Assembly (NCBI RefSeq): GCF_937129525.1
Contig: NZ_CAKZNK010000154.1
Span: 1-49,268, forward strand
Reading direction: 5' to 3'
Origin: an uncultured Chloroflexus sp.
GTDB lineage: Bacteria; Chloroflexota; Chloroflexia; Chloroflexales; Chloroflexaceae
DNA: 49,268 bases
Shown here piece after piece: positions 32,195 through 35,644 of this stretch. The notes below the pieces were generated by a model. It was not told the DNA's origin and did not search any database. It saw nothing but the letters and a program-made list of their open reading frames with translations. The translations under genes and the position numbers were made by a program. Position 1 is the first letter of the stretch, and each line of letters starts with the position of its first letter.

Positions 32195-32929
32195 CTAATT
32201 TTCCACTCGATGGAACACCTCGGCCAGTGGCACGCCAAACGCTTCTCCCCGCTCAGCAGCCCACTGGCGTACCATGGCAGCCAGTTGCGTCTGATCGGTT
32301 CCTAATTGAGAAACGTGACAGCGCAACGCAGCCAGCTTCTGTTCAATCGTCGCGCTAATATCAACCGCCAGATTCACGACCGGCGCGCCCATTACAAACA
32401 GTTCACGAACGCGCGATGGCGGGTAACCCTCGGCAAGCAATTCGGGGAAATCCCAGCTATTCTGCGCTGCCGGATACACGGCGGCTAAGGTTGCGTTGGC
32501 AGCAGCGAGATGGTCGGGATGAAATCGCGGAAGGGAGTACTGCGGCGTCCAAACCCGATCAGGAGACTGACAAACGACGCGCTGGACCCGAATTCGCCGA
32601 ATCTGGCGCACAATATCGCGGCGCAATTCGAGGGTTGGTTGTAGCATACCGTCAGGGTAATCGAGGAAGACGACCTCTTTCAAGCCAAGAATGGCAGCAG
32701 CCGCTTGCTGCTCGGCTTTGCGAATGTCACTGATTCGCCGACGGGCCTCTGGACCGACATCGGTCGCATCATCAGGGCCGCCACTACTGCCATCGGTGCA
32801 GATCACGAGCGTAATCTCCCACCCCTCTGCTGCCCAGGCTGCCAGAGTGCCGCCACAACCAAACTCTGCATCATCAGGGTGAGCTACCACAACCAGGGCA
32901 GTCTTAGGGGTTGATGTATCGTTGTCCAT
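32195..32929 (-). CDS. PIG-L/LmbE-family deacetylase
   Basis: 244 residues of the zinc-dependent N-acetylglucosaminyl-deacetylase-like family. The metal motif AHPDDAEFGCGG (H17, D19, D20) and a later FHPDHLAAA provide ligands and the catalytic Asp. Relatives deacetylate GlcNAc-inositol, bacillithiol or mycothiol precursors, or sugar-linked antibiotics; the substrate here is open. ATG 32929 has AGGAGGAG directly upstream on the minus strand, so a longer frame to 33019 is rejected. A TGTTATC/GATAACA inverted repeat lies 21 bp upstream of the start and may be an operator. No thiol-biosynthesis partners are nearby. Confidence 0.88.
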   Translation of the reverse strand: MDNDTSTPKTALVVVAHPDDAEFGCGGTLAAWAAEGWEITLVICTDGSSGGPDDATDVGPEARRRISDIRKAEQQAAAAILGLKEVVFLDYPDGMLQPTLELRRDIVRQIRRIRVQRVVCQSPDRVWTPQYSLPRFHPDHLAAANATLAAVYPAAQNSWDFPELLAEGYPPSRVRELFVMGAPVVNLAVDISATIEQKLAALRCHVSQLGTDQTQLAAMVRQWAAERGEAFGVPLAEVFHRVEN

Positions 32930-32949
32930 GTCTCCTCCTGGTAGTATTG

Positions 32950-32972
32950 TGTTATCTGATGTTAGGATAACA
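32950..32972. promoter_or_regulatory. inverted repeat upstream of the PIG-L gene, possible operator
   Basis: TGTTATC (32950-32956) and GATAACA (32966-32972) are exact 7-bp inverted copies with a 9-bp centre, 21 bp before the start codon. Confidence 0.4.
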
Positions 32973-33042
32973 TACCTTGTCGGTATCGATCTGTTCGCTG
33001 TCTGGTATGTCAGCCTCACGTCTCAGGTGACATTCCAATCAG

Positions 33043-33071
33043 TTGACGCCAAACTCAGACTCGGATATACT
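33043..33071 (+). promoter_or_regulatory. sigma70 promoter of tRNA-Lys
   Basis: TTGACG (33043-33048), an exact 17-bp spacer and TATACT (33066-33071). The tRNA begins 10 bp after the -10, as expected for a stable RNA gene. Confidence 0.85.
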
Positions 33072-33080
33072 ACCAGAGGC

Positions 33081-33155
33081 GGGCCGGTAGCTCAGCGGTA
33101 GAGCACCTGACTTTTAATCAGAGGGTCGTGGGTTCGATCCCCACCCGGCTCACCA
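33081..33155 (+). tRNA. tRNA-Lys (anticodon UUU), CCA encoded
   Basis: A complete cloverleaf of 75 nt: acceptor GGGCCGG with CCGGCTC (one G-U), D arm GCTC...GAGC, anticodon loop CTTTTAA (anticodon TTT), T arm GTGGG-TTCGATC-CCCAC, discriminator A, and a genomically encoded CCA at 33153-33155. It has its own promoter and a U-tailed terminator, so it is a single transcription unit. Confidence 0.97.
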
Positions 33156-33161
33156 GCTCAG

Positions 33162-33198
33162 GTAGCCTGATGTCGTTTCGGCATCAGGCTGCTTTTTT
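33162..33198 (+). terminator. intrinsic terminator of tRNA-Lys
   Basis: AGCCTGATG (33164-33172) pairs with CATCAGGCT (33182-33190), extended by a wobble and a G-C pair, followed by six T residues (33193-33198). Confidence 0.93.
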
Positions 33199-33634
33199 GT
33201 TGTTGACAAATTGATAGAGACATGTAGGGCGGCAAATGCAGGAGTAGGGGCTGAGCGGGTTTAGGTTCGGCGCCTTGGGCAATAATCTTCGCGCCTCGAT
33301 CAATTCCTGCTGTAAGGCATAAAAATGTTGGATAGGGCAAACGCTGAGTCTTTTTTGGCGTGATATTCCGATCTTGCAAAGCGAGATGTGATGTGTGGCC
33401 CCTGGCGGGCAGGCGAGTCACATCGATCACTCATCAAGAGTATGCCATCATTTTGCTGAATTTGAGATCAAGTGATGGAAGAAAGGGCAAGAGAACAGAG
33501 GTGGTTCCTGGCTGGAAGGACATACTTTTCGTAAAAAGTTTGAAAAATTGGATGACGGCGCATCTGCGCAGAGGAGTTTCTTGTTGTGAAATGTGCTCGT
33601 TCGTGATTGGCTAAAGGTGAAATATTCGCTGTCA
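33199..33634. other. gene-poor DNA between tRNA-Lys and a copy of its 3' end
   Basis: About 436 bp with no convincing coding sequence, more AT-rich and with poorer codon structure than the neighbours. It is bounded by the tRNA gene and by an imperfect duplicate of the tRNA 3' end (33635-33660), the arrangement left by an integrated element that has decayed or been lost. Confidence 0.55.
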
Positions 33635-33660
33635 GGTTCGATCCCTACCCGGTTCACCAG
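33635..33660 (+). pseudogene. tRNA-Lys 3'-end fragment (att-like remnant)
   Basis: The 26 bases here match 33131-33156 of the tRNA-Lys gene at 24 positions (both differences are C to T), covering half the T arm, the acceptor 3' strand, CCA and one following base. The 5' half of a tRNA is missing and the local T stem is broken, so this is not a functional tRNA. Confidence 0.8.
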
Positions 33661-33668
33661 TTTAGACT

Positions 33669-33694
33669 GACTGGAGGCAATATCGCCTCCAGTC
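33669..33694. terminator. perfect hairpin after the tRNA fragment
   Basis: GACTGGAGGC (33669-33678) and GCCTCCAGTC (33685-33694) form a 10-bp stem with a 6-nt loop. It lies between the tRNA fragment and the end of the convergent DUF2085 gene, and could serve either. Confidence 0.75.
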
Positions 33695-33721
33695 GGTTTG
33701 CTGTACACGCGGCATTACCGT

Positions 33722-34570
33722 CTACCAGCTTTCACTGGCAAAGCGGAACAGGGCCAGACCGCCGGCAAAGAGGATGGTTGGCGCAAGGGCCAGACATGCC
33801 GGCAGTCCAAGCTGCTTGAGACTGAAGACGCGCCGTCGATAGCCAAGCAGCGCTGCCATCACCATGGTAAAGATGGTGAAGATCTCGCTCATAATACCGG
33901 CTACGCCGAAAAGCGCCAGCGGCCAGTAGAGCAGGGCAAGCCCGCTGTGAGCGAGAAGAATGAAGAGACCGTTCAAGACCAGCAAACCGCCAAAGTCGCT
34001 CCAATCAAGCACGGGACGCTCTGGTTCTGGATTGCTGCGGAGTGTATGGTTGAAGACCCACAGGATAAGTGGGGTGATCGCGATACCGAATAGTGCGCCT
34101 GTGATTGTGCGCACATCGTTGCGCGGCAGGTAGAAGTAGGTTTGCCCCGTATCTTCAAGCACCGAATTCACGCCATCGACGAGCATCGTCAACACGCCTG
34201 CGCCGAGTGTGACCAGCAACGATAGCGGAGGGAGTGACGCGGCGCGGCTGTGTCCGCGCAACCAGAGGTAGAGCAGGCTGATCAGAAAGCTACTGTAGAT
34301 GCCGAGATTGCGCGCGCAGAGTGGCAGTGGTTGCTCACCCAAAAAGATGAGGTGTTTTTGCGCAACCAGACCATGCACGGCGGCGTACAGCTTCCATTCG
34401 AGGTCGGCGCCTGGCCAGAGAACGAAGATAAGGATCAGCGTAGCAAGCAGAAACAAAAAAGCAAGACCCCAGACTCGTTCCGCTCTGGTTGGCTGTCCTG
34501 CTGCTATGCGGCGGGCTGCAATTCGCTGGCGGGCCAGTTCCAGGATTTCTTCAGGCGATGGCTGGTTCAT
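33722..34570 (-). CDS. DUF2085 membrane protein
   Basis: 282 residues, about seven predicted helices. The segment LPLCARNLGIYSSFLISLLYLWLRG carries the C-A-R-x-L-G-I-Y core of DUF2085, a conserved membrane domain of unknown function found in many anaerobes and Chloroflexi. A cytoplasmic N-terminal helix (PSPEEILELARQRIAARR) precedes the first membrane segment. The gene ends 28 bp from the hairpin at 33669-33694. No obvious ribosome binding site stands before the ATG. Its role is unknown. Confidence 0.75.
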   Translation of the reverse strand: MNQPSPEEILELARQRIAARRIAAGQPTRAERVWGLAFLFLLATLILIFVLWPGADLEWKLYAAVHGLVAQKHLIFLGEQPLPLCARNLGIYSSFLISLLYLWLRGHSRAASLPPLSLLVTLGAGVLTMLVDGVNSVLEDTGQTYFYLPRNDVRTITGALFGIAITPLILWVFNHTLRSNPEPERPVLDWSDFGGLLVLNGLFILLAHSGLALLYWPLALFGVAGIMSEIFTIFTMVMAALLGYRRRVFSLKQLGLPACLALAPTILFAGGLALFRFASESW

Positions 34571-34880: not shown

Positions 34881-35441
34881 TCAGGGGAGCTTGCCCATCC
34901 GTCGCCAGCTCTCAAGCAGGATACTCAGCCCGATCAGCAAAAGCAGACCGGGGAAGAAGAGGCGTGGCATGAGGAAGAGAAATCCCAGGCCAAACAACCA
35001 GATTGCGTTGCGAATGCCGCTGATCAGAGCGCCGCGCTGGAAGTGGACGATTAGCTGAATAATGCCGAGGAGCATCAGTATATTCGGCCAAACTGCCAGC
35101 GGTAGCCGGAGGAACAGCGGGATAAGCAAGGCAGCGCCAATCAGCAGGAAAACAATACCTGCTTCATTCCCGCGCGAAGCTGGTTGTGGTTGCGGCGTTG
35201 GCGCAGTTCGCGCTTGAGAGCTGGGCGCCTGCGCAGATCGGGCATGGATCGGTTCACCGCAGTAGACACAAAAGCGGGCATAGCGCGGATTGACAAATTG
35301 ACAATGCGGGCACGTGATAATCGTATCGGCGCTGGCCGGCAATTGAACAGTTTCACCGGTATTTACCCGAACTGCTGTGCCGCATTCGATGCAGAAGCGA
35401 GCATCATTGGGTAGTCTGGTTTGACATTGTGGACAATGCAT
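34881..35441 (-). CDS. double zinc-ribbon membrane protein
   Basis: 186 residues. Two zinc ribbons occupy the N-terminus: CPQCQ...FCIECG (about residues 3-22) and CPHCQ...FCVYCG (about 44-63). A Ser/Ala/Pro/Gln-rich linker and about three hydrophobic helices (from about residue 95) follow, ending in a basic tail. ATG 35441 is preceded by AAAGGAGAG; an in-frame ATG at 35462 is less well placed. Such zinc-ribbon/membrane fusions are common in Chloroflexi and usually uncharacterised. Confidence 0.78.
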   Translation of the reverse strand: MHCPQCQTRLPNDARFCIECGTAVRVNTGETVQLPASADTIITCPHCQFVNPRYARFCVYCGEPIHARSAQAPSSQARTAPTPQPQPASRGNEAGIVFLLIGAALLIPLFLRLPLAVWPNILMLLGIIQLIVHFQRGALISGIRNAIWLFGLGFLFLMPRLFFPGLLLLIGLSILLESWRRMGKLP

Positions 35442-35644
35442 CACGCTCTCCTTTTCGCTCACGCTCTGAGTGCAGGCGCGCAGGCATTCATGCGGTGCTC
35501 GTCAGATTAAGCCAAACGGGTGAACATGATTGTAGCAATAGTCTGGTTTGCTACCATTAAAACTGATTGTGCTACCCTGCGACATTCTCACTCTCTTGCG
35601 CAGTCTTGCGTGAATTTCCTGCTGATATGACGCAACCATTTCAA

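Follow-up and report, generated by a model that had tools for sequence, protein, structure and literature searches.

An orphan tRNA-Lys 3' end near a tRNA insertion site in an uncultured Chloroflexus, possibly the relic of a lost integrative element

Integration of a mobile element at the 3' end of a tRNA gene gives, in the available text of PMC4383910, a regenerated tRNA, an island and a displaced fragment of the gene. It follows that a fragment displaced in this way should have the old chromosomal flank behind it, and that element DNA should come after the tRNA. At the locus described here the 3' end of a tRNA-Lys gene is found a second time, as an orphan tail, and the two copies lie 504 bp apart, start to start. 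The preliminary description of this DNA suggested that they may be the attL and attR sites bracketing a lost or eroded element, and named a decayed second tRNA gene as the alternative. We ask whether the copies are such a pair and, if they are not, where the orphan tail has come from. The window is the whole stretch of DNA that was analysed, 49,268 nucleotides of a draft genome in 157 contigs; its sole tRNA gene is the tRNA-Lys(TTT) at this locus, which ARAGORN and the RF00005 model both report as intact. Throughout, G-numbers denote genomes and L-numbers fetched loci.

The two copies, their flanks and their surroundings

The repeat stands as it had been described: the bases at 33131-33156 recur at 33635-33660 with 24 of 26 identical, and the identity is 87% when the alignment is extended to 31 nt. 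With a uniform base composition, the probability of 24 or more matches in 26 is 6.7e-13 per position, and as only about 6.6e-8 such matches are expected over both strands of the window a chance origin of the repeat is excluded. When up to two mismatches were allowed, no third copy was found in the 4.48-Mb host genome. The claim that the second copy has no 5' tRNA half is also borne out, the best local alignment upstream of the tail scoring 6, a value matched by 946 of 1000 shuffled sequences, and neither ARAGORN nor the Rfam model calls a tRNA at the tail. An open reading frame on the minus strand (33448-33708) overlaps the tail and is without a Pfam match, so that the tail does not lie inside a conserved protein domain. 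The features of the locus are collected in Table 1.

Table 1. Features of the tRNA-Lys locus, with positions counted in the window
Feature	Position	Strand	Basis
Promoter-like site of the intact tRNA, TTGACG-17-TATACT	33043..33071	+	Only such site in 32900-33800; shuffle mean 0.8, weak alone
Intact tRNA-Lys(UUU), CCA encoded; holds repeat copy 1 (33131-33156)	33081..33155	+	70.3 bits, RF00005
Terminator hairpin of the intact tRNA; family (ancestral) 3' flank	33160..33194	+	-25.9 kcal/mol, 0/200 shuffles; homologous to 7/28 related flanks
Decayed C-terminal end of HEPN-like accessory gene, with in-frame stop and gaps	33197..33387	+	Alignment to L121 and L124
Orphan tRNA-Lys 3' end, nt 51 to CCA; repeat copy 2	33634..33659	+	Alignment to the intact gene
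Hairpin 3 nt past the orphan CCA, unlike the ancestral terminator	33663..33700	+	-29.1 kcal/mol, 0/200 shuffles; best of 28 flank scores 11, equalled by 6/300 shuffles
DUF2085 membrane protein paralog, between the two blocks	33722..34570	-
Zinc-ribbon gene, first of a block syntenic elsewhere in congeners	34881..35462	-	Synteny comparison

The flanks of the two copies provide a direct test of the att interpretation. The bases that follow the CCA were compiled for 31 copies, which come from 30 loci and account for 31 of the 48 rows matched in genomes other than the window's, and 28 of these copies had the 60 bases needed for scoring. The flank of the intact gene matches seven of the 28 (L185, L170, L040:6815, L033, L183, L038 and L037), with scores of 17-33 that none of 300 shuffles reached in any case. 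Its best scores are with other genera (33, 30 and 27) and, among the four congeners that have the locus, it clearly matches L033 only (26). For the flank of the orphan tail none of the 28 related flanks gave a match at this 0/300-shuffle level. The order expected after integration, with the old flank behind the displaced fragment and element DNA behind the tRNA, is therefore not the order found. Since it is the proximal flank that matches those of the family and the distal flank that does not, the terminator behind the intact tRNA is most likely the ancestral one and the insertion site is most likely empty today. An inexpensive way to tell a genuine att pair from tRNA relics of other kinds is to compare the flank of the tRNA 3' end with that of the fragment.

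The hairpin that had been reported after the second copy is present, and none of 200 shuffles is equally stable. It lies 21 nt beyond the stop codon of the convergent DUF2085 gene, is not called as a terminator by terminator prediction, and may serve either the orphan tail, in the manner of a trailer, or the DUF2085 gene.

The DNA between the copies had been characterised as AT-richer and non-coding. The former is correct (GC of 0.475 vs 0.578 for the window) and the latter holds only in so far as coding sequence has decayed there, part of the interval aligning to the C-terminal end of a HEPN-like gene. This segment has 75% identity over 73 nt to L121 and aligns in two colinear pieces to L124; in 200 shuffles the alignment scores of 43.9 (L121) and 53.6 (L124) compare to shuffle maxima of 39.7 and 43.3, respectively, and the HEPN match itself has an E-value of 0.0033, short of the curated cut-off. 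At the four loci with the HEPN-like gene, the alignments for G044 and G008 beat all 200 shuffles and those for G045 and G041 do not rise above them (65 and 108 of 200 shuffles, respectively, scored as high). Either the relic belongs to the G044/G008 lineage or the match is weaker than its best score suggests. The gene was detected in four of 41 genomes of the family and is thus regarded as accessory; PADLOC gave no match to it as a known defence protein. When the remaining ~245 bp of the interval were compared to the DNA downstream of the HEPN-like gene, nothing rose above shuffles at any of the four loci. No integrase lies between the tRNA and the tail, where the largest reading frame touching 33158-33634 has 90 amino acids and three reading frames are without a Pfam match. 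A known phage or plasmid piece was considered for the interval and rejected: among the matches listed (20 of 147 phage and 20 of 131 plasmid records), only query bases 1-69, the end of the tRNA, are covered.

Upstream of the repeat, the gene order MFS - acyltransferase - ferredoxin - PIG-L - tRNA-Lys is conserved in four of seven congeners, and the genes on the 3' side of tRNA-Lys differ in each of these four. An intact tandem tRNA in all relatives, which would have told against an element, is not what the congeners contain: in the 19 kb fetched for each, all four show a single tail-pattern match and a single tRNA-Lys, and none has an intact second tRNA-Lys at the equivalent place. In G001, G002 and G005 no PIG-L match exceeds 51%, and neither the tail pattern nor the anticodon-arm pattern revealed a tRNA-Lys(UUU), two of these assemblies being 99% complete. 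Three of the best tRNA-like matches to the locus in this group are tRNA-Met, and either the same stretch is absent from all three drafts or the locus has changed in the group.

Downstream, the DUF2085 gene stands between the PIG-L/tRNA-Lys block and the zinc-ribbon/MoxR block, two blocks that do not adjoin each other in the stretches fetched from congeners. The seven congeners have only distant copies of the DUF2085 gene (42% or less), with up to 72% in other genera of the family (G047); the gene is spread through the family and we think it unlikely to be mobile cargo. ARAGORN found no tRNA in eight fetched loci around its relatives. The DNA past the stops of these relatives showed no clear match, with L255 scoring 18 (2 of 200 shuffles as high) in a comparison where coding ends were included in both stretches. 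Seven congener stretches fetched around the zinc-ribbon gene, of which L116 spans only ~350 b past that gene, contain neither the DUF2085 gene nor the tail.

tRNA-Lys(UUU) as an insertion site in Chloroflexaceae

The suggestion that integrases use the 3' end of this tRNA is confirmed by the relatives, and insertion at tRNA-Lys(UUU) has occurred repeatedly in Chloroflexaceae; among the titles listed in literature searches, none concerns a tRNA-Lys island in this family. One case is Ca. Chloroploca asiatica B7-9 (G010), in which the contig with the intact tRNA-Lys (C48) stops 36 bases past the gene. Both ends of a second contig, L041 (E1, 17,193 b), carry the tRNA-Lys 3' end plus the same 36 following bases, and a PF00589 integrase (7e-23) lies beside one end. 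A third contig, L040, holds a 6.8-kb integrase element, E2 (L040:1-6839); at its start lie a tRNA-Lys 3' end and the integrase (4e-24), the element's own DNA follows the CCA here (L040:23), and 6.8 kb further on there is a second copy and then the ancestral terminator (L040:6815). From the contig ends, the order appears to be tRNA - E1 - E2 - chromosome, with two integrase elements in tandem. E1 encodes FtsK-, ParB-, DnaB- and NlpC/P60-like proteins, and one protein encoded by E2 belongs to a phage-type replication family. The contig coverages are 843 (E1), 273 (the E2 contig) and 81.5 (the tRNA contig), and the genome coverage is given as 86.3x in the available text of PMC6180586. As its coverage is ~10 times that of the genome, E1 is probably multicopy, either as free circles or as a long array.

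Integrase genes also adjoin tRNA-Lys in G017 (at two loci) and G051, and in G054 the C-terminus of an integrase adjoins a tRNA-Lys 3' copy. At least three integrase lineages are found at tRNA-Lys or its tail copies, namely the E1/E2 type together with G054, the L186/L188 type and L187; the L186 and L188 integrases are 70% alike, and L187 and E1 are distant from both and from each other. Absence of the fragment from every insertion boundary, which would have told against the involvement of an element, is thus not the case for the tRNA-Lys 3' end in general. The exact 25-mer of the orphan tail gave no match in a scan of the GTDB r220 contigs, from which the window's own genome may be missing. 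The three PF00589 genes of the host genome, all on other contigs, were rejected as a source, with 43% or less over a short stretch to the tRNA-Lys integrases compared and no tail copy in the 3.5 kb around each. In four loci from four genera (L171, L172, L180 and L189) a similar 3' flank (TCCACAC...) was noted by eye after the tRNA-Lys CCA, with partial copies in two of them; this flank is perhaps one widespread element family.

Ten partial copies of tRNA-Lys were found in the relatives and nine were counted, that in L174 being inside a reading frame and a probable chance match. Eight of the nine begin at nt 28-35 (L041:17 is bounded by the contig end) and the ninth, in L181, at nt 46. The window's copy, from nt 51, is shorter than all nine. 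Five of these tail-only copies lie in integrase-bearing elements, four in G010 (two each in L040 and L041) and one in G054 (L180). For the other four there is no match in the fetched locus to an integrase profile that was built from only two integrases, and by this measure tails can arise or persist without an integrase, most clearly in L181 (G021). In this genome, Chloroflexaceae bacterium SM2_1_1, the remnant is a 30-base tRNA-Lys 3' end (L181:5896-5925) and the next gene resembles, by eye, the one that comes after the intact tRNA-Lys of L182. In G021 a search allowing up to three mismatches gave no anticodon arm of tRNA-Lys(UUU), the nearest full-length match being a tRNA-Lys(CTT), and G017 has two intact tRNA-Lys(UUU) genes. 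The relic in the window is itself of little weight; what is useful is the hotspot, with its several integrase lineages and one element at a coverage so far above that of its genome.

Origin of the orphan tail

The tail differs from the host's own tRNA-Lys at nt 51, 63 and 70. It agrees at 25 of 26 positions with those tRNA-Lys variants in which A51 pairs with U63, and at 23 of 26 with the host's gene, which argues for a foreign or lost variant and against a recent copy of the present gene. In the set of 39 tRNA-Lys sequences (one of an initial 40 was dropped as its CCA was missing), 36 have G51-C63 and all three distinct sequences with U63 have A51; the set is biased, some of its members having been retrieved by a pattern in which most positions of the 3' end are fixed. 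The source of the tail, on these base differences, was probably not the host's own tRNA-Lys. Other tRNAs of the host were rejected, the best of 44 distinct ones being tRNA-Lys(TTT) itself at 23 of 25 and the next tRNA-Tyr at 20 of 25, as was, on sequence and by eye, the tRNA-Leu(TAA) that lies beside the zinc-ribbon block in G003 and G006. A degenerate pattern found four viral contigs, with every match inside an intact tRNA-Lys gene. One viral contig of 121 kb (IMGVR_UViG_3300025646_000012, L193) has 17 tRNA genes in the 9.4 kb fetched, one of them a tRNA-Lys(UUU) in which A3 pairs with U70.

We tentatively favour the explanation that the orphan tail is a dead relic of a tRNA-Lys variant, brought by an integrative element that was later lost or scrambled, and that it does not belong to a surviving att pair. 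In such a scheme the element would bring an attP copy of the tRNA 3' end together with its own trailer hairpin, and the element would later be lost, or scrambled by rearrangement, to leave the relic tail. The tail would then have no present function, except possibly as a second, imperfect target for an incoming integrase. An element is slightly favoured as the origin because relatives have elements inserted at this tRNA, because five of the nine tail copies lie in elements and because accessory debris adjoins the tail. That the orphan CCA is followed by DNA of its own, as at L040:23, with an unrelated hairpin 3 nt beyond it, and that the tail is nearer to the A51-U63 variants than to the host's gene also count in favour of an element.

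Several observations count against it. Neither an integrase nor any other element gene survives near the copy, and a tail on the far side of the ancestral terminator cannot be the product of simple integration and excision. The left boundary at nt 51 is unlike that of eight of the nine relatives' copies, and four of the nine have no integrase match by the two-integrase profile. The proximal flank is clear in only one of four congeners, which leaves some room for a flank that was itself carried by an element. Furthermore, no element with the exact tail was found in the GTDB r220 contigs scanned, the viral matches to the degenerate pattern all lie in intact tRNA-Lys genes, and the HEPN-like alignment beats all shuffles at only two of four loci.

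A decayed second tRNA-Lys gene comes close behind as a real possibility. Here the tail would be what is left of a paralog with a terminator hairpin of its own, the 5' two thirds of which were deleted and the tail of which has been drifting. The strong hairpin so near to the orphan CCA does resemble a tRNA trailer terminator, and A51 and U63 form a pair, as these positions do in working tRNAs; the pair of intact genes in G017 and the locus in G021, a 3' remnant alone without a match to the integrase profile, are likewise in keeping with such a history. The upstream DNA, however, has no trace of a 5' half and no second promoter-like site lies in 32900-33800, each of the four congeners with the locus has but a single match to the tail pattern, and the edge of the tail, inside the T stem, is sharp and unlike a gradual decay.

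That 33131-33156 and 33635-33660 are the attL and attR of one eroded element, of which 0.5 kb remains between them, is disfavoured and we consider it unlikely. The order, the orientation and the end of the gene are correct for this, with a 3' fragment downstream of the tRNA, and the AT-richer DNA with a decayed accessory gene between the copies at a site that is a hotspot in relatives is what such an element might leave. A proximal flank that is clear in one of four congeners only, and that scores higher with other genera, also fits. The ancestral terminator, however, follows the proximal copy, where in Chloroploca it follows the distal-most (L040:6815), the 0.5-kb interval is without an integrase, and the copy, starting at nt 51, is shorter than the nine tail copies of the family. 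The reading of the repeats as a bracketing attL/attR pair, as first proposed, is thus not supported.

We regard as improbable a rearrangement, or an assembly join, of the PIG-L/tRNA-Lys and zinc-ribbon/MoxR blocks, with the tail coming from a third place that is not seen; the blocks do lie apart in the stretches fetched from congeners, each of the four congeners with the locus has different DNA 3' of the tRNA and the draft is in many contigs, but the junction is well within a 49-kb contig with the DUF2085 gene between the blocks, so that a chimaeric join is not needed, and a rearrangement by itself leaves a tRNA-Lys tail unexplained. Least probable of all is that the tail is a live alternative att site, at either copy of which an integrase with a crossover in the T stem could recombine; it would then be a decoy target through which elements could come and go while the sole tRNA-Lys(UUU) gene stays untouched, and a 504-bp cassette would be cut out if the two copies recombined with each other.

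Comparison with known systems

The locus can be set beside three known systems. The work on partial non-canonical tRNA genes of prokaryotes, in the available text of PMC9897764, takes as its starting point archaeal sequences listed as tRNA genes by tRNAscan-SE, whereas the tail in the window is called by neither ARAGORN nor Rfam; its subjects are likewise pieces of tRNA genes, and the integration of genetic elements is named there as one source of them.

The tRNA-gene islands collected by Islander, as far as the available text of PMC4383910 describes them, resemble the locus in having a tRNA with a 3' fragment downstream in the same orientation, and in the hotspot tRNA with tyrosine integrases in relatives. 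The integration subsites distinguished there, the anticodon site 'A' and the T-stem region 'J', would cover both the relatives' copies and a boundary like that at nt 51. An Islander island has its integrase between the two ends and spans 2-200 kb; in the window 0.5 kb lies between the copies, there is no integrase and the ancestral flank is on the wrong copy.

A third comparison is with E1 and E2 of Ca. Chloroploca asiatica B7-9 (L041 and L040). Their copies run from nt 35 (41 nt), with an integrase adjacent and the ancestral terminator after the last copy, and in these respects they are unlike the window; they share with it the same tRNA, copies that end in CCA and element DNA after the CCA.
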